A DNA stretch of 24,762 nt from a virus. Positions 1,844 through 22,844 of this stretch are shown here, piece after piece. The DNA lies in IMG/VR virus record IMGVR_UViG_3300025853_009734, positions 1 through 24,762 of that record; one strand, written 5' to 3'. Numbering within the stretch: the stretch's first letter is position 1; each line of letters starts with the position of its first letter. The translations under genes were made by a program, and so were the position numbers. The notes beneath the pieces are model-generated. The model searched no databases and was not told the DNA's origin. It was given only the letters and a program-made list of their open reading frames with translations.

Positions 1844-1852
1844 AGGAGAGAA

Positions 1853-2822: not shown

Positions 2823-2829
2823 ACAGGTT

Positions 2830-3192: not shown

Positions 3193-3338
3193 GAGAGTCG
3201 CCTGACCTGATGACGATCTTTGCTCTGGCTGAAACGCTTCATCAACCACTGTCTGAGGTGATGAGCTGGACACTGGACGAAGTGAAGGGTTGGGTGGCTT
3301 ATTTCAACATTCAGGCTGAAAAGAGAAACCAGAAGTAA
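2830..3338 (+). CDS. Tail assembly chaperone, long form by -1 frameshift (gpGT-like)
   Basis: A -1 slip at A AAA AAC (3183-3189) re-reads C3189 and continues through 49 more codons to TAA 3336-3338, giving about 169 residues. The added T domain begins LRESPDLMTIFALAETLHQP and goes on through EVMSWTLDEVKGWVAYFNIQ, a helical pattern typical of the second domain of these chaperones (Trp-rich, 'W...DEV..W.AYF'). The TAA shares its last A with the ATG of the tape measure, the usual coupling. No start codon with a ribosome site precedes the T segment, so frameshifting is the simplest way to express it. In lambda the GT:G ratio is critical for tail length control. Confidence 0.8.
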
Positions 3339-6300
3339 TGGCGACTAATACCACGATCACGATTTCAGCCGTTGACAAAACCCAAGCGGCTTTCAATTCG
3401 GTTGATCGTTCTCTACGACAAGTGGAAGCAACCAGCGCAAAGGTCGCTAGGAGTGTTGGGGGATTAACCACAGCACTGAAGGCCACAGTTGCTGCTTTTG
3501 CTGTTGATCGACTGATTGAATTCTCTGATGCTGCTGCCAACATTGAAAACCGCCTGAAGCTGGTAACGTCCAGCACTCAAGAACTCACCCAAGTACAATC
3601 CGCACTTTTTAAAATCAGCCAGGAAACAGGCCAATCTTTCCAATCCACGGCTGATCTGTATTCGCGCCTTGCCAGAGTCACAGGACGGTTAGGTGTTTCC
3701 ACTGCTGAACTGGAAGAGGTAACACGCTCGCTAGGTAAGGCGATAGCCATTTCTGGATCTACTTCAGAATCTGCCAATGCTGCCATCATCCAGCTAGGAC
3801 AAGGCTTTGCCGCTGGTGTGTTAAGAGGGGAAGAACTCAACTCTGTGATGGAGCAAACGCCAAGAGTGGCGCAGGCTATTGCCGATGGCTTAGGCATTAC
3901 GATTGGCGAACTTCGAGAATACGGGAAGCAAGGCAAGCTTTCCGCTGAGACGGTTTTTGAGGCGCTGCAGTCTCAGGCTGGAGTCTTGGAAGAAGAGTTT
4001 GCGAGAACAAGCCGAACGATTGGGCAAAGCTTCACGATTTTAGAAAATTCTGGAATTCGCTTGGCTGGCATTATCAACCAAGTTGCTGGAGCCAATGAAA
4101 GTCTTGGTGGTGCTATCCGAGATGTAGCGGCTGCACTGGATTCCATCACTGAATCGGATGTTGCCTTTTACATGGACGTTCTCACGGGAACAATTGGGGC
4201 CATTGTTGATGTCTTTACAAATGTAATTGACAAAATTCAGCAGTTCATCAGTCAGGATGATGAGGTTCTGGGTTATGCTTCCATTTTTGCCAAAATCCGG
4301 CTTGGTGTTGAGTTACTGAGCGCGAGCATTCAATTCCTGACGGATCTGATTGCAGACTCGTTTGTAGGCATGGCCTTCCGAGCCTTAGAGATCACATTCA
4401 AAACCATCTCTGCAGACATCAATCAGTTGATTGGCAATGTGATGCTGCTGGATGATGCCTTTGATGTTTTTGCAGCAACGGCTCAGTTGATGGCAGCGAA
4501 GGCGAATCCGTTTGGGGATGTTGAAGAAGCCTTGCAGAAAGTCATTGTTGCACAAGAAAAACTCACTGAGGAAACCAAAAAGGTAGGCGAAGAATACATC
4601 ACCGCAAAAGATGAAATTGCCAAAATCAAGATCATTACCGATGAAACAACAGGAGCTGCCAGCCGAGCCTTGGAGGTTTATCAGCAGAACGTCCAAACCG
4701 CACGAGACACCTACACCACGAGCCTAGCCAATTATGAACTAGGACTTCAGCAGGAATTTGTTGAAAAGAAAAAAGCTGAATTTCTATCTGAACAAGCTGA
4801 ATCCACGAAAGTTATTAAGAAATCGCAGGAAGAACTTCTGCAACTCAAGCAGATGCAGGAAGCGGCAGAAGCAGCCTCTGTGCTTGCTGCTCTGACCTTC
4901 CAAAACATCACAGAAAAGGTTGGAGGATTACTTGGCACACAAGGAAGTCTTGAAGAACAACTGACGGCAGCGAAGCAAGCACAAGCCTTATTACAAGAAA
5001 GGCTTTTTGTTTTAGCCAGTTCGACAGGTGATGAGTCCGGTAGGCAATTCACTTTGCTGACTTCGATCAACCGAGCCACAAAACAGCAAGTTGCATATCT
5101 TGAAGATCAAGTTGCAGCCCAACAAGCCGGATTTCTGGCCCAGGCTGAAAAGGTCAAGCAAGCATTGATTGAACAAGCCACCTATGAAAAGACGGTTGAA
5201 GAAGTCGCCAAGATTACCAAGAGCCTGGAGGATCAAGAAGCCGTGGACTTGGCAACAAAGGCGCTAAAAGAACAAGCGATCTATGAGGAAACAGTTCAAA
5301 AGGTTGCAAAGATTACAGAGCAGCTCCGCAACCAAGAGGCCGTTGACTTAGCGACCAAAGCCTTGGTTCGCGCCAGGAATGAAGAAAAGTCTCTCAAACT
5401 ATTAGAGAGACAGGCCAAGCAAGCCAAGGACATTGCCAAATCCTTAAATGCTCAAGAGCAACTCAAAGCCTTAAAGGCCCAGGACGATCAACTCAAGGCT
5501 CAAGCGGAATCCATCCGCCAAATTAACAATGTTCAGGCCATTGCCCTTGCCACAGCAGTAGAACTTGAACAGTTGACGCTGGAACAGGCCACAGCCCTTG
5601 CTGCAGAGTTAGGCATTCAAAAGCAGCTCACCAAAGAAATGGATGATCGGCTATCTCTGGCAGAAAAATACACAAAAGAAGTATTGAAAGGGGTTCGCGC
5701 AGGAGCGCAAGCCATCACCGAATCAGACACGGCTCAGGCTGTGATGTCAGCGGCTGGCCCATCTGGACAACGGGCTGCGAATGTCGCCAAGATCACAGCA
5801 GAGAAGGGACTAGAGCAAGGACTACTGGCGTTGGTTCTTTCCAATGAAAAAGTGCAGGAAGCCTTGGCAAAAGTTTTTGATGCGCTCTTTGCTTTGGTTG
5901 ATCCGATTATCGACTTATTGGTTCCGGTTGTGGAAGCCTTAATTCCAGTAATGGAAGCAATGCAACCTATTTTTGAGAAACTGCAAAGGCCGATTGAAAA
6001 GCTCGCTCCCTTATTGGTAAAGCTGCTTGAACTCTTGGAACCACTGATTGACGCCATCTTGTTTTTGGTGGAAGGCATTGAATCCGTTTTTGGTGCTTTC
6101 GAGAACGCCATGCAAGGCATTTTTCAGCCTCTACTTGATGCAATTGGTGGCTTGGGTTCCGTATTTAGTGACCAAATCGTTGAACCATTGAAAAATGTTT
6201 TTGGCAGAATGCTAACCGGACTGCAGGAGTTTGGTGGTGCCATCCAAGGCACGTTTGAGCAGGTTTTGTTGGATTTCGGTAATGCCTTTGGAAACTTGGT

Positions 6301-7234
6301 TGGAGGAATTGAACACGTTTTTGAACAAATCTTCTCAGGTGGAATTTTCAACTTTGTTGATTTTATACGTCAGAAGGTAATTGACATTTTCAAAGCCTTT
6401 GTACCTGGCGGAACCATTCCGCTATTACCAAATCCCTTCCATATGTTTGGTCTTGGGCCAAAGAATCTTCTGGAATTTAAGTTTGCCAAAGGTGGTTATT
6501 TGAATGGGCCAAGCCATGCCGCAGGCGGCATGCCTGCAATGGTAGGGGGCAGGATGCCAGTGGAGTTGGAAGGTGGCGAGTTCATCATTCGCAAATCTGC
6601 CGTTGATCAGTTAGGAATTAACCTTCTGAGCCTGCTCAATAGTGTCACCGATTCAGGACGCAAGAAACAGATGAATCAGTTGCTTGGGCCTGCCATGAGC
6701 TTTGGTGCAGGCGGACTTGCTCAAGGAATTTTGGCAAGCAACAAAAGCTTTGGAAAGGCTGGCTTGTCTCTCAGAGACTTGGGTTCTGTTGGCAATCTGA
6801 TTGCCGATGTTGTTGGCAATTTTGGCGCTGAACTAAAGCTTGGAATTCCGAATTTGGCACAAGGTAGGATTGGCTTTCTAGCGGCAGGCGGATTAGTCAG
6901 CGAAGGGAAAACCGCTTCACCTGTGAACTATGGTTTTGAGGCTGGCAATGATCTGCTTGGCAGAATCAAAGTTGGCTTGATGGGCAGCTTCTTTCCTCCT
7001 GCCATTGGGTTGAATGCCAGCTACAAGAAGCCTTCCTGGTGGCCTTTCGCTCAAGGCGGAAGCATCCCAACACTGAGAGGCGCAGCCATGAGCCAGAACT
7101 ATCAAGCAGCGCCAAAAATTGACGTTAATATCTATGACGGCACAGGCCAGCTCATCAGTCAGTACGATTCTGCCATTCGCGTAGAAATCAAGGAGAGAGC
7201 AGCCCGATTTGGTGAATTTCCGGCTGTAGCATGA
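3338..7234 (+). CDS. Tail tape measure protein
   Basis: 1298 residues; at about 0.15 nm per residue this would set a tail near 195 nm. Residues ~1-50 form an oligomeric helix start. Residues ~50-220 carry the classical tape measure domain (RLIEFSDAAANIENRLKLVT, then QETGQSFQSTADLYSRLARVT and GEELNSVMEQTPRVAQAIADGLG). Residues ~400-800 are long coiled coil with a 33-residue tandem duplication. Residues ~840-1030 are strongly hydrophobic and helical, suited to channel formation in the host membrane. The C-terminal part has the common GG-GPSHAAGG-ELEGGEF motif (around residue 1065). The gene overlaps its neighbours by 1 and 4 nt. It acts in the tail lumen and is probably ejected before the DNA. 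Confidence 0.93.
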   Translation: MATNTTITISAVDKTQAAFNSVDRSLRQVEATSAKVARSVGGLTTALKATVAAFAVDRLIEFSDAAANIENRLKLVTSSTQELTQVQSALFKISQETGQSFQSTADLYSRLARVTGRLGVSTAELEEVTRSLGKAIAISGSTSESANAAIIQLGQGFAAGVLRGEELNSVMEQTPRVAQAIADGLGITIGELREYGKQGKLSAETVFEALQSQAGVLEEEFARTSRTIGQSFTILENSGIRLAGIINQVAGANESLGGAIRDVAAALDSITESDVAFYMDVLTGTIGAIVDVFTNVIDKIQQFISQDDEVLGYASIFAKIRLGVELLSASIQFLTDLIADSFVGMAFRALEITFKTISADINQLIGNVMLLDDAFDVFAATAQLMAAKANPFGDVEEALQKVIVAQEKLTEETKKVGEEYITAKDEIAKIKIITDETTGAASRALEVYQQNVQTARDTYTTSLANYELGLQQEFVEKKKAEFLSEQAESTKVIKKSQEELLQLKQMQEAAEAASVLAALTFQNITEKVGGLLGTQGSLEEQLTAAKQAQALLQERLFVLASSTGDESGRQFTLLTSINRATKQQVAYLEDQVAAQQAGFLAQAEKVKQALIEQATYEKTVEEVAKITKSLEDQEAVDLATKALKEQAIYEETVQKVAKITEQLRNQEAVDLATKALVRARNEEKSLKLLERQAKQAKDIAKSLNAQEQLKALKAQDDQLKAQAESIRQINNVQAIALATAVELEQLTLEQATALAAELGIQKQLTKEMDDRLSLAEKYTKEVLKGVRAGAQAITESDTAQAVMSAAGPSGQRAANVAKITAEKGLEQGLLALVLSNEKVQEALAKVFDALFALVDPIIDLLVPVVEALIPVMEAMQPIFEKLQRPIEKLAPLLVKLLELLEPLIDAILFLVEGIESVFGAFENAMQGIFQPLLDAIGGLGSVFSDQIVEPLKNVFGRMLTGLQEFGGAIQGTFEQVLLDFGNAFGNLVGGIEHVFEQIFSGGIFNFVDFIRQKVIDIFKAFVPGGTIPLLPNPFHMFGLGPKNLLEFKFAKGGYLNGPSHAAGGMPAMVGGRMPVELEGGEFIIRKSAVDQLGINLLSLLNSVTDSGRKKQMNQLLGPAMSFGAGGLAQGILASNKSFGKAGLSLRDLGSVGNLIADVVGNFGAELKLGIPNLAQGRIGFLAAGGLVSEGKTASPVNYGFEAGNDLLGRIKVGLMGSFFPPAIGLNASYKKPSWWPFAQGGSIPTLRGAAMSQNYQAAPKIDVNIYDGTGQLISQYDSAIRVEIKERAARFGEFPAVA
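5171..5368 (+). repeat. 99-bp tandem duplication in the tape measure gene
   Basis: Two adjacent 99-bp units (5171-5269 and 5270-5368) encode residues 612-644 and 645-677. Each begins EQA-YE-TV and ends NQ/DQ-EAVDLATKAL, with most positions the same. Thirty-three residues is 3 x 11, which keeps the coiled-coil phase, so adding or removing a unit should change tail length by about 5 nm without breaking the protein. Confidence 0.85.
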
Positions 7235-8544
7235 GCAACCTTTCTTTAAAAGTAACCGTCAGCGGCACAGACTACTATCTTAGTGATGAAACCTTTTTAA
7301 AAACAGATGCCAACTTTCATTATGGATTTTTACTCAGTGGGCCAAGGATCAAAAAAGGCCAAGTGAAAGGCGGATTTTATGATTTTGAAGTGGGCCAGGT
7401 GCAGATAGAAAACAGGCCACTAGATGAAAATCATCCGTTTGGTGGCAGCCGCTACACCTCCTTGATTCAGAATCTGGGAACAGCCTATCCTTTCACCTTC
7501 CAGTATGGCCTTCAGGATTATGATTGGATCACCGGAACTTTGGTCTTAGAAAAAGTAGACAGAGAAGCCTTAACCTTTTCAGTAAATGCCACTGAATACA
7601 ATGTCGATGCCACTTCTACGGTGACAGACAACTCAGGCAATACGGTAACGGCTCCCTTTGCTTTTGGAGCCGTTACGCACTTTACACCATTGATTCGCAC
7701 CACCAGCAACCGCTGGCACAATCCAACCGGACTGACTTCAGGTATCACGGTTTTTGAAGATGGTGTCTCCAGAACGATCAATGCAATCACCAGCGACTAC
7801 ATAGAAATCACTGGATATTCAGCAGATGCTGGCGAGGTAAGCCTAACGAGTACAAACAGCAAAACACTGGAAGACTTTTTTGATTATGTGGCAACCCAGC
7901 TTTCCTTAAGCGTTAGCACAGCTGACACCACAAGGGCCACCAATGCGAGTTCCTACGATGTCAAGATCAAAGTCAATGCTCCGATTCCTTTGCTTGAGTT
8001 GGCTTCTGATGTGGCTGCAGCCTATAACCATCAGTTTGACATTCGCCAGGATTCCAGTGGCAACTCCACACTGCACTTGATTGATCGGGCCTATGCTGGA
8101 GCCACTATCACCAGTTACAAAGATTATGAACTACTAACAAGTAATTACACGCTTGGATTTCCCTTGGGTGGCGTTTCTTCTAGTTGGGGGATCAATGTAG
8201 TCGAAGGTGGAAGGTTGGTTGGGAAGTCTACCAGTGCCAGAAGCGCCAATAAACCCAAAGGCAGAGAGTTTTCTGTAAACGCTTATGCAGATCAGTATTC
8301 AGACATTACCAGAGTCCAAGGTCGGATTGATGCCATTAAGGATATTGAAAAACTTAGCAAGGCCAGTGTAACAATCCCAGACATCAACACCGAGATTGAG
8401 TTAGGTGACAGAATTCGCTTCAGAAGGCTTCAGGACTTTCTTGCATGCACCTTGACGGTTCGCTCGATTGATTATGATTTTTCAGCGAGAACCACAGCCT
8501 TGGAAGGGGACGCAACGCTTTCAGAATTTGTGAGGGATTTCTGA
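7231..8544 (+). CDS. Tail tip / baseplate hub-like protein
   Basis: 437 residues, directly after the tape measure (4-nt ATGA overlap), where lambda-like phages encode the distal tail and hub proteins. The N-terminal ~110 residues (YYLSDETFLKTDANFHYGF, then PRIKKGQVKGGFYDFEVGQ and IENRPLD) form a beta domain typical of distal-tail proteins. Residues ~215-285 (LEDFFDYVATQLSLSV, LELASDVAAAYNHQFDI) resemble the hub fold in which a helix pair is followed by a short beta unit. The C-terminus (VTIPDINTEIELGDRIRFRRLQDF) looks like an OB/LysM-type module found in hub proteins. It probably forms the ring that closes the tube tip. No enzyme motif was seen. Confidence 0.6.
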   Translation: MSNLSLKVTVSGTDYYLSDETFLKTDANFHYGFLLSGPRIKKGQVKGGFYDFEVGQVQIENRPLDENHPFGGSRYTSLIQNLGTAYPFTFQYGLQDYDWITGTLVLEKVDREALTFSVNATEYNVDATSTVTDNSGNTVTAPFAFGAVTHFTPLIRTTSNRWHNPTGLTSGITVFEDGVSRTINAITSDYIEITGYSADAGEVSLTSTNSKTLEDFFDYVATQLSLSVSTADTTRATNASSYDVKIKVNAPIPLLELASDVAAAYNHQFDIRQDSSGNSTLHLIDRAYAGATITSYKDYELLTSNYTLGFPLGGVSSSWGINVVEGGRLVGKSTSARSANKPKGREFSVNAYADQYSDITRVQGRIDAIKDIEKLSKASVTIPDINTEIELGDRIRFRRLQDFLACTLTVRSIDYDFSARTTALEGDATLSEFVRDF

Positions 8545-9761
8545 TGAGGATTCTTTATCAAGATCGTGTCACTTCCATCAGCACTCAAGAAGGCAACCTC
8601 ACCGGATTCCCTATTGGTAACGTGCAAGGAGATATTCCGCGCCAAGCTTTTATTTCTTCTGGAACTACTGAAGTCATCACGGTGAATTGCAGAGGAACGG
8701 TTGACGATCCAGTTCAGGCTTTTTTTGTTTCAAATCTGCTGGCGGACTCTGCCACTTGGGCTTTAAATTCAACTGATTCAAATTATGCCAATCCGAGCCA
8801 GATTGAAACAGGAACACTTCGCACTACCTACGGACTAGATTCAACGCTAGGGGGAAACTCAGCAACCGGATCAACCTTTTTTGCAGACCAAGCAGCCTAT
8901 CTGCCAGCTCAGTTCATCACTTTCGCCAATGAGCAATCTGGATACTGTCAGCTAGTCATTACCTTGACCACTTCAGTCAATGTTGGCGAAAAGAACCTTT
9001 CTGGAAACAGTGCAGAACGCTGGAATCAAGATTCAACAGTCTATGGCAGATTTGAAGACGCTTCTGGCAACCCAATTAATGTGATTAGTCACGGCAGAAT
9101 CTTCGTTGGTTCGCATGTCGCCACGGCAGCCTCACCACAAACTTACACTTCTGACACTACTTTATCTCCAACTTCAGGAGGAGTTTACTTTGTGATCAGT
9201 CCAATGACAGTTTCCAATAATGCTGTGGTTACGATTGATAACGGCACCAATGATTCGCTTGTCGAAATCACAAGCGTTCTTTCCTCTGGGCAGATTCTCG
9301 AAATTACCGGAGATGGAACCGGAGCAGATGCCATCAAACTAGACACGCAAATCAGTGACACCAATGACATTGGTTCTGTTTATAACCCAGTTCGCTTGGG
9401 GATTCTGCGAGTGGGGAAGGTATTGACGCTGCCAGATGCAAGACCAGGAGCCACCAAAAGCCTCAATGATTATTCGGTACGCAGGCCACAGCCCACAGGC
9501 GGTTACACCTATCAGCAAAGGCCAGTGGGTCATTCTGTGGGATTAAGTTTAGTTTTAACCAATACGCAGGCTGAAGATTTGGAAGCCGTTGCCAGAAGCT
9601 ATCGGTCAAAACCAATGCCGATTCTTTGGGTGGAGGACATGCCTGCAACATTTAAGGAATCGTCCAATGCCACAGGATTTTATTATCTGAATCCTCCGAG
9701 TTTTGGACATATCAGCCGAGACTATCAATCCTGCGCTCTTCAACTAACTGAGGTGATTTAA
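8544..9761 (+). CDS. Tail tip structural protein, unknown role
   Basis: 405 residues sharing one base with the gene before it and one with the gene after it (TGATG, TAATG). The N-terminus (MRILYQDRVTSIST, then NLTGFPIGNVQGDIPRQAF) has the phrase found at the start of beta-sandwich tail proteins with a galactose-binding-like fold. The middle is beta-rich, with Ser/Thr/Asn bias. The last 120 residues (RVGKVLTLPDARPGATKSL, then RPVGHSVGLSLVLTNTQAEDLEAVARSY and KPMPILWVEDMP) form a separate domain that reads like a tail-tip attachment module. The last domain may carry the fibres that follow. I recognise no named family with confidence. Its position between hub and fibres implies a receptor-proximal adaptor. 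Confidence 0.5.
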   Translation: MRILYQDRVTSISTQEGNLTGFPIGNVQGDIPRQAFISSGTTEVITVNCRGTVDDPVQAFFVSNLLADSATWALNSTDSNYANPSQIETGTLRTTYGLDSTLGGNSATGSTFFADQAAYLPAQFITFANEQSGYCQLVITLTTSVNVGEKNLSGNSAERWNQDSTVYGRFEDASGNPINVISHGRIFVGSHVATAASPQTYTSDTTLSPTSGGVYFVISPMTVSNNAVVTIDNGTNDSLVEITSVLSSGQILEITGDGTGADAIKLDTQISDTNDIGSVYNPVRLGILRVGKVLTLPDARPGATKSLNDYSVRRPQPTGGYTYQQRPVGHSVGLSLVLTNTQAEDLEAVARSYRSKPMPILWVEDMPATFKESSNATGFYYLNPPSFGHISRDYQSCALQLTEVI

Positions 9762-10756
9762 TGGGAATGAATACCCTTAAAACTGACATTGTTTTTCCAA
9801 CTACATCAGACGGCTCACTTTCCTTGTTTGGCAACTCTTCTGGTTCTGCGACAACCACAGGAATTACGATTGATTCTTCTGGAGTTGTCACCACCACAGG
9901 AGCCTTGGACATTGGGAACCAGACTACGGATACCGTTACGGTCACCGCACGATTTGATTCGGATTTGATTCCATCAACGGACAACACCAGAGACTTAGGC
10001 TCAGTCACCTTGGAATGGAAAGACTTATACCTTGACGGCACAGCCTATCTGGACACTGCAGAGATTGGCGTTGCTACAATAGCAACAGCAACCGCTACCA
10101 GCAGCTTCAATGGCAATCTGAACAGTAATTTGATTAGTGCAGAGTCTAGCGGTTCGGATGTTTTGTTTGGGGACAATATCGACTTGCAAACCAACATCAT
10201 AAAAACCAGCGCCAGTAATCAAAACATCACCATCACGCCATCCGGCACAGGCAGCTTGGTTGTTTCAGGTGCAACCAATCCGGCAAGCGTAGCACTCAAT
10301 GATGAAGCCAACACCTACTCTGTAACCATAACCGTTCCCAATTCTGCAAGCCTTGGCTCCAGCTACACGCTCACTCTACCCACTTCTGATGGAAACAACG
10401 GACAGGTTTTAATTACGGATGGAAGTGGCAACCTATCTTGGTCAACCGTCACCGGAACCGGAACTGTAACTTCAGTTGCTGTTTCAGGAACAGATGGCAT
10501 TGAGGTGGATTCCGGTTCACCGATTACAGCGGCAGGAACAATTGAACTTGGACTTAACATCAACACGATTGTCTCCAATCTTGAAGCACTAACTGGAAAC
10601 AATCGGCTCAATGTTAGCGCCTTGGCAAGAGACAGCGCAGACAATGCCCAGGCACTGATTTACAACTCAGCGACTGAAGAATGGGAACCTCAAGACCTTA
10701 CTGATTTTGGCGCTACCAATGGCAAGGTGGTGGCGCTTTCTATCGTTTTTGGATAA
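9761..10756 (+). CDS. Tail fibre protein
   Basis: 331 residues of low-complexity beta structure, rich in Ser, Thr, Gly, Asn and Asp and without Cys. It holds the fibre phrases DSDLIPSTDNTRDLGSVTLEWKDLYLDGTA (residues ~70-98), LPTSDGNNGQVLITDGSGNLSWS and VTSVAVSGTDGIEVDSGSPI, all of which recur in phage and bacterial trimeric fibres. The 'TRDLGS...W.dLYlDGTA' unit is usually just before a C-terminal tip domain. The protein ends GATNGKVVALSIVFG, and the 12093 gene product ends in a similar 'DPVVMAIALG', so the C-terminal peptide may be a shared docking piece. It probably forms a trimeric shaft on the tail tip. No peptidase/chaperone domain seen. Confidence 0.75.
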   Translation: MGMNTLKTDIVFPTTSDGSLSLFGNSSGSATTTGITIDSSGVVTTTGALDIGNQTTDTVTVTARFDSDLIPSTDNTRDLGSVTLEWKDLYLDGTAYLDTAEIGVATIATATATSSFNGNLNSNLISAESSGSDVLFGDNIDLQTNIIKTSASNQNITITPSGTGSLVVSGATNPASVALNDEANTYSVTITVPNSASLGSSYTLTLPTSDGNNGQVLITDGSGNLSWSTVTGTGTVTSVAVSGTDGIEVDSGSPITAAGTIELGLNINTIVSNLEALTGNNRLNVSALARDSADNAQALIYNSATEEWEPQDLTDFGATNGKVVALSIVFG

Positions 10757-10765
10757 AGGAAAAAA

Positions 10766-11140
10766 ATGGCAAATCCAAACATTGTCAATGTCAATGCGAT
10801 TTACGGGAAAACGGCAACCGTGAACCTCTCGACCACTAGCGCCACAGCCGTTATCTCCAATGCCAGCGCAAGTTCAAAAGTCCTCAAGGTCAACAGTATC
10901 TATGTTGTAAATACGGATGGAACCAATAGCGCAGACATTACGATTAGTTACTACAGTGCAGCGGCATTAGGCGGAACAGCCTATCCAATCGCCAGCACAA
11001 TTACAGTTCCTGCAGATTCAAGCCTAGTGATCGTTGAAAGAAACTCATCAATTTACATTGAAGAAGACCGAAGCATTGGGGCCACTGCAAGTGCAGCCAA
11101 TGATTTAACTGTGATCTGTAGTTATGAAGAAATCAGCTAA
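10766..11140 (+). CDS. Small beta-sandwich virion protein, paralogue A
   Basis: 124 residues with a strong ribosome site (AAAGG, 6 nt before ATG). It has the short beta pattern seen in many small marine phage virion proteins: SSKVLKVNSIYVVNTDGTNSADITISYY, then ASTITVPADSSLVIVERNSSIYIEEDRSI and a final DLTVICSYEEIS. The 12447 product has the same order of segments (SSASRTLTVEIKY, IPVGSSVNLLDGGKLVLVPNENLTV, VHLSYLEIT), so the two are probably diverged copies. The fold is likely a fibre- or receptor-associated decoration. No Cys pairs. The role is unknown, but the placement within the fibre cassette suggests it belongs to the adhesin tip or coats it. Confidence 0.55.
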   Translation: MANPNIVNVNAIYGKTATVNLSTTSATAVISNASASSKVLKVNSIYVVNTDGTNSADITISYYSAAALGGTAYPIASTITVPADSSLVIVERNSSIYIEEDRSIGATASAANDLTVICSYEEIS

Positions 11141-12093
11141 TGCGTAGTCAAGGATCACTGATCGGTAAAAACAATAGCGCAGCCACAGGCCAAGGGATCT
11201 GGAACCTGAACGCCTTTTTTGACCAACCTCCCAGAAACAATGCAGGTAAGTGGGGAGCAGATAGGCCAGATCCAGAATACCAAGAAAGCGATGGCATCTG
11301 GACATTGGACGAAATCACCAGATTAGGTCGAGACAATAAATGGAATTCAACAGTTTTGAATCAGTTTGGCCTAGAGGTGGCGGTGATTGCTGGTGGAGGA
11401 GGTGGCGGAACAACGTCACCAACAGCCGGAGGAGGTGGCGCTGGTGGAATGTTGATTTCTACTGAAACCGCAACAGTGGGAACTACTTATTCTGCAACAA
11501 TAGGTCTAGGCGGTTCTGCTGGTTCCAATGGCAGTAATTCCACATTATCTGTTTGGTCACTGACGGCAATTGGAGGGGGCAGAGGCCAAAACCATCCCAA
11601 CAGCACTGGCAACAGTGGAGGTTCAGGTGGTGGTGGTTCTTATGGGACTACTGGAGCCGGAACTGCTGAACAAGGGAATAATGCAGGAATAGGCTATTCA
11701 GGGAATCCGCTTACTTACGGAGGGGGAGGGGGCAAAGGTGGCGTTGGTGGAAACGGTCAAAACTCCTATTCAGGCACAGGTGGTGGCAATGGTGGTGCTG
11801 GATACGAGTGGCCTAGTGGTTCTGGTGATTACTACGCTGGAGGAGGTGGTGCTAGAGCAGGAGGTTCAGGTGGTTCAGGTGGAGGTGGAGCAGCCGGAAG
11901 TTCAGGCACAGCCAACACTGGAGGAGGTGGTGGTGGAGGAGGTGGTGGTGGTTCTGGTATTGTAATTCTAAAAATTAGGGCAAGCCAGTATTTGGGAAGC
12001 AGCACAGGAAGCCCAACCGTTGAGGACTTCAATGATGGAAGCACTGATTTCAAGCTAGTGAAATTTACAGGAAATGGGAGCTATACCGCATAA
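11140..12093 (+). CDS. Glycine-rich adhesin (poly-Gly tail fibre tip)
   Basis: 317 residues in two parts. Residues 1-85 are an ordinary charged domain (NAGKWGADRPDPEYQESDGIW). From residue ~86 to ~275 the protein is dominated by Gly-rich blocks, including a run of 11 Gly, separated by short polar or aromatic segments. The end (SGIVILKI, then KLVKFTGNGSYTA) is a typical closing of phage Gly-rich proteins. Blocks of this kind form polyglycine-II helical lattices in T4-type gp38 adhesins, where the loops between blocks contact the receptor; that is established for gp38, and applying it here is inference. The gene overlaps its neighbours by one base at each end. Poly-Gly coding tracts (GGA/GGT) are also prone to length change. 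Confidence 0.75.
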   Translation: MRSQGSLIGKNNSAATGQGIWNLNAFFDQPPRNNAGKWGADRPDPEYQESDGIWTLDEITRLGRDNKWNSTVLNQFGLEVAVIAGGGGGGTTSPTAGGGGAGGMLISTETATVGTTYSATIGLGGSAGSNGSNSTLSVWSLTAIGGGRGQNHPNSTGNSGGSGGGGSYGTTGAGTAEQGNNAGIGYSGNPLTYGGGGGKGGVGGNGQNSYSGTGGGNGGAGYEWPSGSGDYYAGGGGARAGGSGGSGGGGAAGSSGTANTGGGGGGGGGGGSGIVILKIRASQYLGSSTGSPTVEDFNDGSTDFKLVKFTGNGSYTA

Positions 12094-12443
12094 TGGCAAC
12101 GATTAAAGTTAAACGAGGAACAAGAAGCGAAATCAACACAGCAGCCTCTGCTTCTGGCTTGAATCAAGGTGAATTGTATCTGATTACTGATGAAGATGTC
12201 TTGGCTGTGGGAACCAGTAGCTCAACTTATGAAGATGTTAATTCAGCAGGACTAACAAATCTTGTCACAGATGTAACAGGAACTTTACCGATAGCAAACG
12301 GGGGAACCGGATTAACTGCCTTGGGATCAGCAGGACAGGTCTTGAAAGTAAATTCAGCAGGAAACGCACTAGAATACGCAACAGATAACACAGGTGCGGC
12401 ATCAGGCGCAGATCCTGTCGTAATGGCAATCGCACTAGGTTAA
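12093..12443 (+). CDS. Short fibre protein with tropism-determinant-like N-terminus
   Basis: 116 residues. The start MATIKVKRGTRSEINTAAS, then GLNQGELYLITDEDVLAVGTSSSTYE, is the N-terminal unit found in phage fibres and tropism determinants (a KRGT...GE.YL.TDE...vG pattern); the protein at 1853 starts with a related unit. It continues with VTDVTGTLPIANGGTGLTALGSAGQVLKVN, a very common phage fibre phrase (LPIANGGTG), and ends DPVVMAIALG. It has no tip domain and seems a minimal fibre: N-terminal mount, short shaft, and a hydrophobic C-terminal peptide. It may mount the next gene products. Starts one base inside the previous gene's stop. Confidence 0.6.
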   Translation: MATIKVKRGTRSEINTAASASGLNQGELYLITDEDVLAVGTSSSTYEDVNSAGLTNLVTDVTGTLPIANGGTGLTALGSAGQVLKVNSAGNALEYATDNTGAASGADPVVMAIALG

Positions 12444-12446
12444 AAA

Positions 12447-12782
12447 ATGGCAAACGCATTCCTCCGAAAAACAGTAACCGCAGGTACTTCAAGAACAGAT
12501 GTCTTAGCGTCAGATGTGCCTTCTGCAACAGAAGTCGTCTGTATCGGATTGATAGCCTCAAACAAATCTTCTGCGTCTCGTACACTAACTGTTGAAATTA
12601 AGTACGATACAGGAAGTCCTACTTATACAAGCTATATCACAAATATTCCAATTCCAGTGGGTTCTTCTGTCAATCTGTTAGATGGTGGAAAGCTGGTACT
12701 TGTACCGAATGAAAACCTGACCGTTACAGCAGATTCGGCATCAGCCGTAGATGTACATCTCAGCTATCTGGAGATTACATGA
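12447..12782 (+). CDS. Small beta-sandwich virion protein, paralogue B
   Basis: 111 residues starting 3 nt after the previous stop. The N-terminus (MANAFLRKTVTAGTSRTDVLASDVPSAT) and the paired-strand region (SSASRTLTVEIKY, IPIPVGSSVNLLDGGKLVLVPNENLTV) match a small phage structural family in which a 'vpa-tav..gl..sN-t-sa..v.i' unit is followed by 'G..l.v.ans'. It resembles the 10766 product in length, segment order and the SYLEIT/SYEEIS ending. These two may be a repeated decoration or fibre-tip component. The Gly-rich adhesin and the short fibre sit between them. The stop overlaps the next small ORF by 4 nt (ATGA), so translation is coupled. Confidence 0.55.
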   Translation: MANAFLRKTVTAGTSRTDVLASDVPSATEVVCIGLIASNKSSASRTLTVEIKYDTGSPTYTSYITNIPIPVGSSVNLLDGGKLVLVPNENLTVTADSASAVDVHLSYLEIT

Positions 12783-12910
12783 GTTATATCGGCAGCAAAC
12801 GATCCAGCAGTCTCGTTAGTTTTGATGATGGTACGATTGGCAGTGGGGTGGTGTTTCCTGCTGGGCATGAATTCATGGCTATCAAAGGCTTTGCAGGTGC
12901 TTGGTTATAA
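12779..12910 (+). CDS. 43-residue fibre N-terminal remnant
   Basis: A 43-residue ORF opening at the ATGA overlap, beginning MSYIGSKRSSSLVSFDDGT and ending GAWL. The MSYIG start is shared with the 367-residue fibre at 14843 (MSYIGNQP), and GSGVVFPAGHEF resembles phrases found in marine phage fibres just before their tip. It therefore looks like the mount of a fibre whose shaft and tip are gone, or a truncated leader that survives through coupled translation. The next gene starts within it. Product function unknown; it may be a degraded gene. Confidence 0.4.
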   Translation: MSYIGSKRSSSLVSFDDGTIGSGVVFPAGHEFMAIKGFAGAWL

Positions 12911-13229
12911 TTCTTATTCGTTCACTGGAGAACCCGAAACGGAAAAAGAGTTTTTAGCAGTTTTTAAATACAGCGGGAGTAAGGAAATTAATTGGGTCGA
13001 AATCCAAGCAAGAATTGCAGAACTCCAAGCAGCAGAACCAATGCGATTATTAAGAGAACAGCGTAACCAACTTCTTCAAAAAAGCGATTGGATGGCAGTG
13101 GCAGATAGAACAATGACGCAAGCACAAATCGACTACCGACAAGCACTACGGGATCTACCAGAGACAGCAGACCCACAACTAGACGAAAACGGACAACTTA
13201 CCAACGTAACGTGGCCTGTATATGAGTAA
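12897..13229 (+). CDS. Tail fibre assembly helper (phage tail APC-like)
   Basis: 110 residues from GTG 12897, which has AAAGG 8 nt upstream and opens just inside the previous small ORF; a TTG at 12822 or ATG at 12870 in the same frame would lengthen it. The segment RNQLLQKSDWMAVADRTMTQAQIDYRQALRDLPE is diagnostic of the C-terminal unit of phage tail fibre assembly/chaperone proteins (the 'R..LL..sDW......m....yRqaLRdlP' pattern), which end near a Trp-Pro. Here it ends NVTWPVYE. These helpers fold or trimerise fibres. The N-terminal FTGEPETEKEFLAVFKYSGSKEI is its own small domain. The stop overlaps the following fibre gene by 8 nt, which suggests that it serves that fibre. Confidence 0.7.
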   Translation: MLGYNSYSFTGEPETEKEFLAVFKYSGSKEINWVEIQARIAELQAAEPMRLLREQRNQLLQKSDWMAVADRTMTQAQIDYRQALRDLPETADPQLDENGQLTNVTWPVYE

Positions 13230-13773
13230 TGCACGGAATATAGCGAACTTACCAAACGGGGATGATGCTCCCATTTATGCGTGTAGGGCTTGGGTAAATT
13301 TTAGAGGAACTAGTCAATCCGGCACGTTAAACACCTCTGGCCCTGTTACTGGACTGTATACTGCTACGGTTACTGGAGCAACCACTTTTACGATTGAATA
13401 TAGCAGCACCACTTATACGGTAACTACATCTGGTAATCTCGAAGTTGGGGATGGTGAAGGTGTGGATTTAACGATCAGTGGAACGAGTGTCACGATTGAT
13501 ACTCAGATTCGTGAAAGTGGGAATGTATCTACAGTGGTTGACAACGGAACAGGCGACTATACCATAAATTTTGAAACTGCAATGCCTGATGCGAATTATT
13601 CAGTTTCTGGGTCAGTTTCTTGGGAAAATGCTACTTGGGGTAACACTTTTATGTTGAATGCTAACACTTATTCAACCTCAGCAGTTAGTATCGTTTCTCA
13701 AGACAATGACGGTAATATTGTTGGATATGCCAAAAAAGATGCGCTTATTGCTTGTGTTCAAGTATTTCGCTAA
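13222..13773 (+). CDS. Receptor-binding fibre tip protein, RAWVNF family (1 of 3)
   Basis: 183 residues. It begins MSNARNIANLPNG and reaches CRAWVNF near residue 21. Then comes a ~60-residue beta insert (GLYTATVTGATTFTIEYSSTTYTV), followed by the family core IRESGNVSTVVDNGTGDYTINFETAMPDANYSVS (residues ~97-130) and a final beta part ending CVQVFR. The core is present in two other genes here (14224 and 14843). I know the pattern from uncultured marine phage fibres, where it closes the protein and is taken to be the receptor-binding tip. The two Cys could form a disulphide or bind metal; this is inference. No own ribosome site is obvious, and coupling through the 8-nt overlap is likely. Confidence 0.7.
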   Translation: MSNARNIANLPNGDDAPIYACRAWVNFRGTSQSGTLNTSGPVTGLYTATVTGATTFTIEYSSTTYTVTTSGNLEVGDGEGVDLTISGTSVTIDTQIRESGNVSTVVDNGTGDYTINFETAMPDANYSVSGSVSWENATWGNTFMLNANTYSTSAVSIVSQDNDGNIVGYAKKDALIACVQVFR

Positions 13774-13787
13774 CCACAAAGGATTTT

Positions 13788-14000
13788 ATGAAACTAGCAA
13801 TTTTCCCCAATGAAGAAACCATCTCTGTTTTAGTACCTGCTCCGAACTGTGGGCTTACGTTAGAACAGATTTGCGCTAAAGATGTACCGACCGGAGTCAA
13901 GTACAAAATTATCGACAGTTCAGAACTCCCAGCAGACCGAGAATTTAGGGGGGCTTGGGACTATGATTTCACCAATTCATACGATGGAATAGGCGCATGA
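13788..14000 (+). CDS. Small fibre-associated protein
   Basis: 70 residues from ATG 13788, with AAAGGA 7 nt upstream (an upstream TTG at 13752 in the same frame is unlikely). Residues ~10-69 (LVPAPNCGLTLEQICAKDVPTGVKYKIID, ELPADREFRGAWDYDFTN) follow a short pattern seen often beside phage fibres, where a 'v..lP.dr.Fr.AW.yd' phrase closes the protein. It is followed, with a 4-nt overlap, by another short protein of the same pairing. The two probably form a helper pair for the adjoining fibre genes. No enzyme motif. The function is not known, but the pairing and placement are recurrent. Confidence 0.6.
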   Translation: MKLAIFPNEETISVLVPAPNCGLTLEQICAKDVPTGVKYKIIDSSELPADREFRGAWDYDFTNSYDGIGA

Positions 14001-14227
14001 TTACGATTGACATCAACAAAGCAAAAGAGATTAAAAAAGAATCTCTACGACAGGAACGCAAGCCTCTGTTAGAGGCTCAAGACGTAGCGTACATGAGAGC
14101 GCAAGAAGCTGGTGAAGATACGACTGCCATCGTTGCGGAAAAGGTTCGCTTACGGAATATCACCATGCTCTGTGACACGGCAACTAGCGTAGAAGATCTT
14201 AAAGCTATTGACATCAACGCATCATGA
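13997..14227 (+). CDS. Small helical helper protein
   Basis: 76 residues, highly helical and charged (INKAKEIKKESLRQERKPLLEAQDVAYMRAQEAGEDTT, then AIVAEKVRLRNITMLCDTATSVEDLKAI). The order 'K.IKr..lR.eRkplLe.lDv.ymrA.E.g', then 'i...k..LRdit', is a recurring partner of the preceding protein type in phages and looks like a coiled-coil chaperone subunit for a fibre. It overlaps the neighbours by 4 nt on both sides (ATGA), so it is produced in step with them. No known biochemical activity; the assignment as a fibre assembly factor is inferred from context. Confidence 0.6.
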   Translation: MITIDINKAKEIKKESLRQERKPLLEAQDVAYMRAQEAGEDTTAIVAEKVRLRNITMLCDTATSVEDLKAIDINAS

Positions 14228-14826
14228 CTACTGCTGTTGAAGTTGCCGAAAAGGGGCATCAGCTTGCTGCGTGGGTAAATTTTAATGGTACATTTTCAGA
14301 TACATCAGGACAAAGCGGAACCTATGCTTGTTCTGGTAGCACCATTACGATCACAAATACTGCACACGGTTTGTCTGTTGGCGATTCTATTCATGCAGCA
14401 TTTACGAGGAGTGCAGGGGATACGCCAACGATTACAGATGATTTCTTTGTTGTACTAACCGTTCCTTCTGCTGATACCTTTACGATTCAAACTGTGGTTG
14501 CTACAACGGATCAATCTGGATCAGTTGTTTACGACAGTGATGCCGCAACCGCAACCGCAGGATCTGGGCCAATACGAGGAAGTTACAATGTTTCATCAAT
14601 AATTGATGGAGCAGCAAACGGGCATTTTATAATATGTTTTGAGACTCCAATGGAAGATATTAGTTACAGTTTTCATGGCTCTGCATACAATGCCACTAAT
14701 GTTAATGTGTATCATTTAACAGGTTTTAATGGCGATCCTACTGCAACTCAGTTTTATGTGTACATTTATGATTTTAGTGGGACAGCAGTCAATGTTAAAT
14801 ATAACTATGCAGCTTTTTACAGATGA
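14224..14826 (+). CDS. Receptor-binding fibre tip protein, RAWVNF family (2 of 3)
   Basis: 200 residues. The start reaches LAAWVNF at residue ~15, then a ~90-residue Ig-like beta insert (STITITNTAHGLSVGDSIHAAFTRSAG, DTFTIQTVVATTDQSGSVVYDSD), then the family core IRGSYNVSSIIDGAANGHFIICFETPMEDISYSF and a C-terminal part ending AAFYR. The 'HGLSVGDSI...G......fTI' insert is a unit common in other phage fibres, so domains seem to be swapped as modules. Compared with the 13222 and 14843 copies the core has diverged strongly (Cys lost from the first motif, PMEDISYSF for AMPDANYSV), as expected if receptors differ. Coupled to the previous gene by a 4-nt overlap. Confidence 0.7.
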   Translation: MTTAVEVAEKGHQLAAWVNFNGTFSDTSGQSGTYACSGSTITITNTAHGLSVGDSIHAAFTRSAGDTPTITDDFFVVLTVPSADTFTIQTVVATTDQSGSVVYDSDAATATAGSGPIRGSYNVSSIIDGAANGHFIICFETPMEDISYSFHGSAYNATNVNVYHLTGFNGDPTATQFYVYIYDFSGTAVNVKYNYAAFYR

Positions 14827-14842
14827 TTCCAACGGACACTAA

Positions 14843-15946
14843 ATGAGTTACATCGGCAACCAGCCAGTCCTAAACACCAGTGAATTCCGAGAGGAGTTTG
14901 CGGTTACGAGTACACAGACGGTTTTTAACACAGGTGGTTTCACCGCATCAAGTGACTCTGCGACGTTGGAAGTCCTGCGAAACGGGGTGCTATTGGGAAC
15001 CGCAGACTACACTTTGGGCAGTGATGCCAGCACAGTGACGTTGGCAAATGCCGCAGTCAACGGAGACATCATCGTCATCAAGGGTAGACGAGAACTGACC
15101 AACGGGGTGCAGGTTACCGAATTCCGATATGAGGAGACGATTGCCAATAATGCCACTACGGTCACACCGAACTACACGATGGTTCCTGCCTACACCGATG
15201 TCTTTCTGAACGGTGTCCGATTGGCAAAGGGCAACAACGGAGTCACCGCAGATTACAGCATTTCCAGTAATACCGTCAGTTTTACGACCAACCCTGTCAA
15301 TGGCGATTTGGTTCAGATCATCAGTAGGGAAGCAGCAACCAGCATCTATGGCGATTCCTTCGCCAGCACCTCTGAAGTCCAAGGCGTCTACACAACTGCG
15401 ACCACTGCAAAGGCAACCAACGCCAATCAGTTAACATCGGTCACTGCAGTATCTGGATACAGTTTAGCAGACATTAGCGTTGGAGATTATGTTACCGGAG
15501 AAGGGATTCGGGTAGGCACAACGGTATCGGCAATCAGTGGGACTACGATCACACTTTACCACCCAGATGGAGATGCGCTAAGTAGTTCAATGACCGATCT
15601 GAGTGGTGATCCTGTTTCTTTCTACAATTCAACGAAAGCATTAAGTGCTGGGACAGTAGCAGGAGGGTTATGCCGTGCGTGGGTGAATTACAATACTTCC
15701 ACTAACAGCATTAACGCTAGTTTTAATGTTTCCAGTGTTACAGATGCAGCAGGCAATCTAGTAGTTAATTTTACAACTGCTATGCAAGATGCAAACTATT
15801 CCGTTCAAGTGACTGCTGGTGCTGGGTCAGGATTATTTCATGAACGAGTTGATAATTTAGCCACAGGTAGTTTCCGTATCTATACATATCGGGATAGTGG
15901 CGTACTAACGGATTACAACCCAACCTGTGCAGCAGTCTTCCGCTAA
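14843..15946 (+). CDS. Long receptor-binding fibre, RAWVNF family (3 of 3)
   Basis: 367 residues. The N-terminus MSYIGNQPVLNTSEFREEFAVTSTQTVFNTGGF, then VLRNGVLLGTADYTLGSDASTVTLANAAVNGD, is a widespread mount/shaft unit of marine phage fibres; a second copy follows (ATTVTPNYTMVPAYTDVFLNGVRLAKGNNGVTADYSI), so residues ~15-85 and ~95-170 are an internal repeat. Residues ~180-265 are a Thr/Ser/Gly beta region, and the end is the shared tip: CRAWVNYNTSTN, NASFNVSSVTDAAGNLVVNFTTAMQDANYSVQV, closing CAAVFR. It is the largest of the three copies and the only one with its own mount, so it may be the main fibre and the others variants or satellites. Confidence 0.75.
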   Translation: MSYIGNQPVLNTSEFREEFAVTSTQTVFNTGGFTASSDSATLEVLRNGVLLGTADYTLGSDASTVTLANAAVNGDIIVIKGRRELTNGVQVTEFRYEETIANNATTVTPNYTMVPAYTDVFLNGVRLAKGNNGVTADYSISSNTVSFTTNPVNGDLVQIISREAATSIYGDSFASTSEVQGVYTTATTAKATNANQLTSVTAVSGYSLADISVGDYVTGEGIRVGTTVSAISGTTITLYHPDGDALSSSMTDLSGDPVSFYNSTKALSAGTVAGGLCRAWVNYNTSTNSINASFNVSSVTDAAGNLVVNFTTAMQDANYSVQVTAGAGSGLFHERVDNLATGSFRIYTYRDSGVLTDYNPTCAAVFR

Positions 15947-15962
15947 CTCCAACAAGGTAAAC

Positions 15963-16241
15963 ATGAAACTACTACTTCTACTCCCACTCGCATTGTTTGG
16001 ATGCTCAGACTACCCAGCTTCTGAGGGCAACGATAGCGAAGCGAACCCGATTGAGATTCACATTAATATAGACACTCAAAACAATCTGACTGATCCGCCA
16101 GACAATGACACAATGGAAGTCGATGTGGATTCAAACAGTGACTCGCAAAGCGATTCCGACAGTAGTAGCGATAGCAGCAGTGAATCTACGATTGACAACA
16201 GCACTGGAATTCAAGTCTACGAATTTAATTCAATTCTATAA
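15963..16241 (+). CDS. Ser/Asp-rich lipoprotein
   Basis: 92 residues from ATG 15963, with AAGG 6 nt upstream (an in-frame start at 15927 would lie inside the fibre gene and spoil the signal). MKLLLLLPLALFGCSDY has a hydrophobic signal and the lipobox L-F-G-C, so Cys14 should be lipidated and the protein anchored in the inner or outer membrane. The rest is disordered and very acidic, with a Ser/Asp/Asn tract (SNSDSQSDSDSSSDSSSES). It sits at the head of the lysis cassette. Outer-membrane spanin partner and superinfection exclusion lipoprotein are both possible, and neither is proven. The start of the next gene is 13 nt after the stop. Confidence 0.6.
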   Translation: MKLLLLLPLALFGCSDYPASEGNDSEANPIEIHINIDTQNNLTDPPDNDTMEVDVDSNSDSQSDSDSSSDSSSESTIDNSTGIQVYEFNSIL

Positions 16242-16254
16242 CTGAGGCCGAGCA

Positions 16255-16596
16255 ATGCCAGCAGAACCCAACACAATGATTCAATTAGTCCAAGATTTAG
16301 GTTTTGGCATGGCTTCTCTCACCTTCAGCGGTTGGTTGATCGTGTTTCTTTTAAGAGGTTTTGAAAAGGAGCGAAATATTTGGCTAACTAAGGACTCTGA
16401 AAGCGATATTCGCGTCAGCGAGCTATTACGGGAAAATTCACAACTTCAACAGGCCACCACAGAAAAGCTCGCAAACCTTCAGGCTGCGCAGTCTCAACAA
16501 CTTTTGGCAGTTCACGAAAAACTCAACACTACTTTGACAAACATGACCGTTGCGATTAGCGAGCTAAGTCAAAAAATGGATAATCTAAAAAAATGA
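16255..16596 (+). CDS. Membrane protein with C-terminal coiled coil (holin or spanin candidate)
   Basis: 113 residues: one transmembrane segment near residues 16-34 (GFGMASLTFSGWLIVFLLRGF), then a positively charged flank (FEKERN) and a Gln/Leu-rich coiled coil (residues ~55-113: LLRENSQLQQATTEKLANLQAAQSQQ and on). An inner-membrane spanin has one N-terminal segment and a periplasmic coiled coil, and the size fits. But the basic residues just after the segment suggest that the C-terminal part is cytoplasmic, as in some BhlA/UviB-type holin-like proteins. So I keep both options. It lies between the lipoprotein and an exported protein, and overlaps the next gene by 4 nt. Confidence 0.5.
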   Translation: MPAEPNTMIQLVQDLGFGMASLTFSGWLIVFLLRGFEKERNIWLTKDSESDIRVSELLRENSQLQQATTEKLANLQAAQSQQLLAVHEKLNTTLTNMTVAISELSQKMDNLKK

Positions 16597-21911: not shown

Positions 21912-22844
21912 ATGCAACTCGTTAAACTGGACGAAGCTAAGAGAGCTTTAGCAGAAGCTTCGACACTGCAAGAAATCAAAGACATACGAGATAAAGCGGA
22001 AGCAATCCGGCAATATGTAAAGGTTGCTGGATATCATCTTGGATATCAAAATCAAGCCGCAGAAACCAAGCTTCGAGCCGAGCGTAAGGCTGGTGAGTTA
22101 CTGAAGCAAATGGAGAAGAATAAAGGAGGCAAACCTAGTGAAAAGAACCGTGGACATGATGTCCATGGTATTCCAAGCCTGAAAGACTTAGGCATTCACC
22201 ACAAACAATCTCAACGTTGGCAACAGATTGCTGACTTACCGGAAGAATCTTTTGAAAATAAAATCGAAGAAGTAAAACAAAAGTATGAAGAATTAACACA
22301 ATCAATCTTTCTACAATTATCGAAAAGCTTACGCGCTCATGTTGCCAATAACTCTGGAGACAATGAATGGTACACTCCAGAAATTTACATCAACGCAGCA
22401 AGAGAGACACTAGGCACAATCGATCTAGACCCAGCATCCAATCCAACAGCAAATGAAATTGTAAAAGCAAAGACCTTTTACACAGCAGAAGACAGTGGAT
22501 TAGAGAAAGAATGGGTTGGCAATGTCTGGATGAATCCACCTTATGAAAGTCGACTTATCGGCTCTTTTATAGATAAGCTGCTGGTTCATTATGTAAAAGA
22601 GCAAATCCCACAAGCGATTGTTTTGGTGAACAATGCCACTGAAACGCAATGGTTTCAACTAATCGCTGAAGCCGCCAGAGCTTCCTGCTTCCCTAAAGGA
22701 AGAGTTAAGTTTTGGCATCCAAGAAAAGAAGCAGTTCCACTACAAGGCCAATCGATTCTTTATTTAGGACAAAACAAAGAAAGATTTATTCAGAATTTTC
22801 ACCAGTTTGGTGTTTGTTGGGAGGTTCCGCTTGGGATGGTCTAA
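21912..22844 (+). CDS. dam: Phage-type DNA N6-adenine methyltransferase with N-terminal extension
   Basis: 310 residues with AGAGAAG upstream. Residues ~150-300 are the phage Dam domain (PF05869 type): NEWYTP (151-156), DLDPAS (171-176), TAEDSGLEKEW, and VWMNPPYE, whose NPPY at 208-211 is the catalytic D/NPPY of N6-adenine methyltransferases. It methylates adenine in the phage or host DNA, perhaps to avoid restriction or to regulate genes. Residues ~1-140 are an extra part (IKDIRDKAEAIRQYVKVAG, KLRAERKAGELLKQMEKNKGG, then LKDLGIHHKQSQRWQQIADLP), helical and often found in phage and plasmid proteins with a ParB-like or DUF3102-like flavour, probably for DNA binding. The SAM-binding end is C-terminal as in the family. 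Confidence 0.85.
   Translation: MQLVKLDEAKRALAEASTLQEIKDIRDKAEAIRQYVKVAGYHLGYQNQAAETKLRAERKAGELLKQMEKNKGGKPSEKNRGHDVHGIPSLKDLGIHHKQSQRWQQIADLPEESFENKIEEVKQKYEELTQSIFLQLSKSLRAHVANNSGDNEWYTPEIYINAARETLGTIDLDPASNPTANEIVKAKTFYTAEDSGLEKEWVGNVWMNPPYESRLIGSFIDKLLVHYVKEQIPQAIVLVNNATETQWFQLIAEAARASCFPKGRVKFWHPRKEAVPLQGQSILYLGQNKERFIQNFHQFGVCWEVPLGMV

Follow-up and report, generated by a model that had tools for sequence, protein, structure and literature searches.

Candidate receptor-binding tip variants in a replaceable slot of an uncultured tailed-phage genome and their probable renewal by recombination at two joints

Three neighbouring genes, named P1, P2 and P3 here, were found in a 24,762-base linear virus record (IMG/VR record IMGVR_UViG_3300025853_009734; hereafter the window), and they probably encode three versions of one tail-fibre tip domain. 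Our reading, to which we give a probability of about 0.75, is that they are tip variants of a temperate tailed phage, placed side by side in a slot whose contents can be replaced, and that new tips arise by recombination at two joints. The observations behind it are mosaic tip genes, the two joints at which their homology stops, one fusion within a locus, one displaced tip, and the presence or absence of an insert at one point. The related contigs, cited below by locus number (L), are all metagenome assemblies and fragments. The slot and the parts of the three genes are as follows.

11150 to 15932, plus strand: replaceable, putatively receptor-tip slot, where DNA homology to the nearest relatives L084 and L086 is interrupted
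13222 to 13773, plus strand: P1, tip gene with insert (profile and PHROG matches, structure model)
13288 to 13311, plus strand: P1 joint A, AWVNFRGT, where segments end
13309 to 13506, plus strand: P1 insert of about 66 residues, the same insert as in L091, L092-L094 and L095
13522 to 13599, plus strand: P1 conserved core, NVSTVVDNGTGDYTINFETAMPDANY, with joint B at its end
13600 to 13770, plus strand: P1 variable head, its DNA unalignable to relatives that share the preceding part
14224 to 14826, plus strand: P2, tip gene with insert, missing in L088 yet 97% identical in L025
14290 to 14565, plus strand: P2 insert of about 92 residues, a sequence module seen in other virion proteins
14587 to 14667, plus strand: P2 core
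14843 to 15946, plus strand: P3, tip gene without insert and with a long N-terminal part
15677 to 15691, plus strand: P3 joint A, AWVNY; homology to relatives ends exactly at 15689 (10 unique matches)
15725 to 15799, plus strand: P3 core
15800 to 15943, plus strand: P3 variable head

The tip is about 100 residues long in these proteins. It opens with AWVNF at residues 23-27 of P1 and 16-20 of P2 and with AWVNY at residues 279-283 of P3; the cores run to FETAMPDANYS, FETPMEDISYS and FTTAMQDANYS, and the C-termini are FR, YR and FR, respectively. Pairwise blastp gave E-values of 2e-11, 1.7e-9 and 1.2e-9, and in Smith-Waterman comparisons 3 of 3 pairs scored above all 1000 shuffles, although the margin for P1 and P3 was narrow (105 vs. 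a shuffle maximum of 101). A tip-family profile, made from 55 uninserted tips with the window copies left out, matched exactly three of the 80 open reading frames (ORFs) of the window, namely P1, P2 and P3 (E-values of 3.6e-28, 1.5e-25 and 8e-14). Furthermore, PHROG 11355 (tail fibre protein) matched P1 (3.9e-9), P2 (1.8e-7) and P3 (2.7e-10) as well as 54 of the 55 aligned tips. The initial annotation, made from the sequence alone, had placed three paralogous proteins with this common opening, core and FR/YR ending at 13222, 14224 and 14843; its coordinates and motifs hold, and blastp, the shuffle test and the held-out profile agree on the paralogy. To that description we add the N-terminal part of P3 (residues 1-278), which has no counterpart in P1 or P2, and a variability that is not restricted to the insert but also covers the approximately 45-60 residues that follow the core as well as the complete slot (about 4.8 kb). 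A Pfam Invasin_D3 match on P1 (4.2e-5) was below the cut-off, straddled insert and core, and was not used.

An AlphaFold2 model of P1 (predicted local distance difference test score, pLDDT, 73; predicted template modelling score, pTM, 0.66) pointed to the same kind of protein. In structural comparison, ranks 1-11 were all C-terminal domains of phage or pyocin fibres or tailspikes (Z 5.5-8.8). For example, the phiAB6 spike matched at Z 8.8, the Pam1 cyanophage spike at 7.6 and AP22 gp53 at 6.8; LKA1, pyocins R1 and R2, AP22 gp54 and a Klebsiella phage depolymerase were also among them. These matches aligned 70-91 residues and skipped the insert. In addition, 53 predicted viral proteins were matched by Foldseek at E<=0.001. 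Though the pyocin R1/R2 fibre, AP22 gp53, phiAB6 and Pam1 domains are the best structural matches of P1, they have no clear sequence relationship to its tip, and when two tip alignments were searched against the sequences of solved structures, no convincing match appeared (best E 0.087 and 0.2). The model thus suggests that the P1 tip has probably a fibre tip fold, and together with the sequence relationships it suggests that P1, P2 and P3 all carry variants of one C-terminal tip domain of a tail fibre and are probable receptor-binding tips.

Homology between tip genes stops at two places, AWVN[F/Y]NG (joint A) and the end of the core, ...MPDANY (joint B). Among 137 distinct tip genes, 50 segments reached 93% identity or more over at least 40 bp; 9 of these span the gene while 41 end inside it. 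When segments of at least 60 bp that start at the 5' end of the gene were counted (23 segments), 16 stopped at joint A and 4 within the core; the mean fraction expected for the two sites combined was 0.31. Comparison with the window, from which the 12 window-copy loci and all genome-contig loci were excluded, gave 137 unique right ends in 13222-15946; 56 of these fell in six joint intervals that make up 5.5% of the span, with 27 at the P1 core end, 12 at the P3 AWVNY, 11 at the P1 AWVNF, three each at the P2 AWVNF and the P3 core end, and none at the P2 core end. The third codon positions gave a further view of the joints. In 12 mosaic comparisons third-position identity went from 75-100% to 31-61% across the joint, in either direction, whereas in the whole-gene control, P2 vs. 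L025, it stayed at 86-98%. The two halves of one gene therefore differ in recent ancestry, and such an abrupt change of ancestry inside a gene is what marks a mosaic receptor-binding protein. Loci were redundant by contig in this comparison and were merged if they shared an identical 400-mer, which resulted in 89 clusters, 27 with two or more tip genes, 55 with one and 7 with none.

Rearranged tips were observed in several relatives. L091 has three tip genes (tip1, tip2, tip3), while in L092-L094 the first part of tip1 is fused to the last part of tip2. L091 1-1193 is base for base identical to L093 7140-8332, and L091 3481-5775 to L093 8322-10616, so that the flanks of the junction are identical over 1,193 and 2,295 bp. 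The fusion junction in L093 is an 11-bp identical tract, with 2,298 bp missing relative to L091, and it is the same in L094. L092 matches L093 without a difference along its entire length (6,092 bp), and L094 has 9 differences from L092 over 5,081 bp. The change could have been either a loss in L093 or a gain in L091. Within L091, the cores of tip2 and tip3 are 98.2% identical over 57 bp in differing surroundings (tip1 vs. tip2, 86%), a pattern consistent with conversion within the genome. L010 has two paralogues in the same contig that are 98.6% alike to the core end and then differ. In L005 the tip of P3, at 95.1% DNA identity from AWVNY to the end, stands on an unrelated N-terminal part and just upstream of the 70-residue gene, which is the position of P1. 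L139 is without the L091 block between the start of tip1 and the start of tip2, and its homology jumps at the start codon.

The inserts of P1 and P2 occupy the same point of the tip and P3 has none there, as the initial annotation stated. The spacing from AWVNF to the core is usually 10-16 residues, and values of 19, 23, 26, 31, 73 and 101 were also found at that point. The P1 orthologue in L088 is a short form without the insert, and the L088 DNA upstream of it is about 93% identical to the window. The P2 insert has relatives within P-HM1 gp7, the major capsid protein of P-SSP2 and a 1661-residue L041 protein, and an Acinetobacter brisouii contig (L327) carries one at the equivalent place of the tip. 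Such presence and absence at one point, together with the occurrence of the P2 module in other proteins, indicates that the inserts act like mobile modules that dock at one fixed place. Both inserts had been called immunoglobulin-like. This holds weakly for P1, where residues 31-96 matched T-cell receptor immunoglobulin chains at Z 3.0-3.4; the P2 model is weak in the insert (pLDDT ~43-61), and no fold is therefore claimed for P2. A second domain in the profile search had suggested that part of the tip core might have been copied in the P1 insert; this was rejected as the insert alone gave no match. In L003, a near-identical copy of the window (99.95%), the P2 insert differs by a compensated cluster of four changes in about 8 bases (window 14444-14452), which may be genuine or an assembly error.

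The region around the tips is itself replaceable, and its genes, with the recombinase discussed below, are the following.

12093 to 12443, plus strand: small anchor-type gene; its first ~48 residues are Mtd_N-like, below the Pfam cut-off, and are common to the differing cassettes of L084, L086 and L088
12822 to 13229, plus strand: tail assembly chaperone gene (Pfam Phage_tail_APC, 45.4 bits vs. a cut-off of 26.6)
13788 to 14000, plus strand: 70-residue gene beside the tip genes, 94-100% in many relatives
13997 to 14227, plus strand: 76-residue gene matching phrog_20196 and, weakly, phrog_4912 (tail fibre assembly)
16255 to 16596, plus strand: downstream shoulder gene, 113 residues, 93-100% identity in 48 of 58 loci
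23345 to 24088, plus strand: RecT-family annealing recombinase (92.9 bits vs. a cut-off of 24)

L084 and L086 share about 89-90% DNA identity with the window over 379-11150, after which homology is lost and resumes at ~15932-15963 (82.6-83.1%); within the slot it is limited to one short conserved joint at 12074-12248. The homology of L088 runs to 12376 and is then a patchwork until 15932. The shoulder gene was found in 58 loci, at 93% identity or more in the 48 listed, beside very different slot contents. We surveyed the slot upstream of it in 50 of these loci and the window, leaving out L299, in which the end of the locus truncates the shoulder match, and L304-L308, L013 and L021, with shoulder identity below 40%. 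Tip genes were present in 7 slots (the window, two window copies, the contig of L088, L139, L259 and L269) and Mtd-like genes in 8; nearly all of the remaining slots held various other fibres, one of them with a chaperone-of-endosialidase domain.

Sister viruses use the same slot for a diversity-generating retroelement (DGR). Reverse transcriptase (RT) was over the cut-off in 5 of the 46 records that share the shoulder gene (L260, L261, L263, L265 and L273), and in each of these five it is accompanied by a template repeat and an Mtd-like target, all placed before the shoulder gene. In L261 the target gene lies at 622-1800 (mtd_2nd, 51.8 bits), the template repeat at ~1820-1954, RT at 2068-3348 (64.6 bits) and the shoulder gene at 3369. 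Differences fall at template adenines in 19 of 30 cases in L261, 26 of 29 in L263 and 25 of 37 in L260, L265 and L273, so that RT, an adenine-biased template repeat and a target gene occur together in all five. In L086 (10667-12163), L177, L286 and L288 an Mtd-like gene is kept without a template repeat, and RT was not found in their records; the DGR has apparently been cut out and the target frozen, judging from these sequences. The RT frame of the five sisters runs on into a C-terminal part of ~100 residues, and a 100-residue ORF that matches this part was observed in L086, L177, L286 and L288. From the DGR sisters, the Mtd-like genes without RT, the tip arrays and the other fibres it follows that one slot holds any of four contents. 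The tip-array and near-relative records gave a different picture: RT (RVT_1) was found in none of 38 records including the window, all of them fragments, and within the window the best off-diagonal match of 13222-15946 was 25 bp at 84%, thus no template-like repeat. The initial annotation had noted the lack of RT in the window, which extends to the other 37 records, none of them known to be complete. Its suggestion of diversification without RT is partly supported; the DGR that sister viruses carry in the same slot was not foreseen in it.

As for mechanism, P1, P2 and P3 would be kept side by side as tip versions in the replaceable slot, and their products would presumably assemble as trimers and bind receptors. 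Recombination of tip genes, either within one genome or with those of co-infecting relatives, may produce new tips, with crossovers in two short stretches that the fold must conserve: joint A, AWVN[F/Y]NG, would correspond to the strand that precedes the insertion loop, and joint B to the core as far as MPDANY. Insert, core and head would all be swapped by a crossover at joint A, and the head only by one at joint B. The agent could be a phage-coded annealing recombinase such as the RecT of the window. Rad52-like phage recombinases are described as tolerating divergence (PMC3945230).

Several results weigh against our reading. The longest DNA match between any two of P1, P2 and P3 is 16 bp with one mismatch, so recombination among them was not seen. 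The proposal of the initial annotation that inserts are exchanged for diversification is therefore kept as regards the paralogues, the insert at one point and the exchange of parts in relatives, but not as regards exchange among the window's own three genes; beyond it, we found exchange at conserved joints, heads swapped after the core, and a whole slot that is replaceable. The L091 form is known from one contig. On bacterial genome contigs a single tip within ~6 kb was found in 24 of 24 tip loci, indicating that tandem arrays are not general and are confined to some virus groups. Only 4 of 22 records contained RecT, which can therefore not act as sole agent and was rejected as a general requirement. 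The segment-end and right-end counts are not independent, and conserved motifs attract the ends of similarity segments even without crossover, which is why codon positions were compared. The Pfam family Gp53-like_C (PF21882) did not reach its cut-off of 24.9 bits, with P1 at 15.7 bits and P2 and P3 unmatched (among the 55 tips, 7 were at E<=0.1, the best at 0.0019). Foldseek gave nothing significant against PDB (best E 0.29 for P1 and 0.17 for P2), and Z values under 8 can reflect a common arrangement; for these two reasons the tip is called a probable, not a proven, fibre tip fold.

The alternative to be taken most seriously, which we regard as possible but somewhat doubtful, is ordinary mosaicism: tips would be exchanged only between phages by general recombination, and the array would offer three specificities at once without being a reservoir. 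The lack of recent exchange among the window's three tips fits it, as does the fact that most mosaic pairs found are between genomes. However, two genes from a single locus of L091 are fused in L092-L094, with identical flanks, the L010 pair lies in one contig, and the shared core of tip2 and tip3 in L091 in differing surroundings is what conversion within a genome predicts. Alternatively, the three proteins could be structural without binding receptors and vary by drift. The receptor binding proposed for the tips is putative, which leaves room for this, but we consider it unlikely since the fold matches are fibre and tailspike C-terminal domains, an assembly chaperone is in the gene context, and sister viruses have an Mtd-like protein, a fibre of the chaperone-of-endosialidase type or some other fibre in the slot.

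Artefact and retroelement were given far less weight. Junctions could be assembly chimeras, given that the related contigs are metagenome assemblies and that tip cores repeat within a genome. Yet the L093 junction tract is just 11 bp, shorter than the k-mers that assemblers usually use, which counts against a chimera; the same junction occurs in three contigs (L092, L093, L094) with different metagenome ids, and mosaic pairs at 86-97% identity cannot stem from the collapse of identical k-mers. Chimerism is thus very improbable. A DGR elsewhere in the genome is hardly credible. It is favoured by the DGR in the corresponding slot of sisters and by the incompleteness of the window record, but a template-like repeat is missing from the window, no RT was found in the 38 records, all fragments, and the tips differ by replaced segments rather than by point changes at template adenines. 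DGR action on the window's tips was accordingly rejected.

Recombination of tip variants at two joints, our preferred reading, resembles several known systems. Domain shuffling of phage receptor-binding proteins, with mosaic and recently exchanged fibres, has been described (Nat Commun 2023, PMC10684548), and tail-fibre recombination is known in Litunavirus (PMC9786124). The likeness lies in mosaic fibres with a conserved N-terminal and a variable C-terminal part, whereas the present case differs by tandem paralogous tips, two fixed joints inside a domain of ~100 residues and a fusion within a locus; paralogues within one genome are not treated in the available parts of these two sources. The DGR of the Bordetella Mtd type also brings targeted change to receptor tips in an otherwise stable genome, and it shares the slot in sisters, but tip arrays have neither RT nor template repeat and exchange whole segments instead of undergoing adenine-directed mutation. 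Orphan-tip displacement in Rhs/CdiA toxins and pilE/pilS gene conversion act on tandem partial or alternative C-terminal modules that recombine through a conserved stretch. In the present phage tail slot the copies are all whole genes, and silent copies were not observed. Alternative fibre ends within one genome are also provided by invertible tail-fibre segments (Mu G, P1 C); the three tips here are full genes on the same strand, and the longest reverse-strand match of the tip region to the window was 21 bp at 86%, thus no inverted repeats flanking the variable ends were found in this fragment. We found no literature report of the AWVNF tip family or of tandem tip paralogues with fixed joints, a weak negative as few subscription journals were covered. 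Shuffling of fibre domains is known; arrays of tandem tips whose joints are fixed, located where sisters can carry a DGR, look like a new form of it. A bolder and rather doubtful extension would be that the tandem tips are a standing reservoir, with whole alternative receptor tips stored in an operon-like slot, that annealing-type recombination at two fold-built joints is an RT-free counterpart of the DGR, and that DGRs and arrays compete for, and replace each other in, one slot within the virus group.

Other features of the window may be mentioned. A Dam-type DNA adenine methylase (21912-22844) and a phage integrase (17546-18715) were found and, with the RecT-family recombinase, are consistent with a temperate phage. 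The 70- and 76-residue genes between the variable tips (13788-14227) are strongly conserved in many relatives and are possibly helper or assembly factors. A hexapeptide-repeat transferase-like protein (452-1060; Pfam Hexapep, 87.1 bits) lies amid structural genes. At 5162-5361, neighbouring stretches of the tape-measure gene give secondary matches in L084 and L088, and the sequence suggests internal repeats there.

Uncultured aquatic viruses alter host recognition fast, and the molecular route has mostly been guessed. Because the joints are fixed, the route of exchange can be read from sequence, which permits tip swaps to be counted in metagenomes and the site of the next swap to be predicted, and arrays can be compared with DGR-bearing sisters via the common downstream shoulder gene. 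A conserved motif in a receptor domain can act as a recombination handle, and fold and evolvability may be linked.

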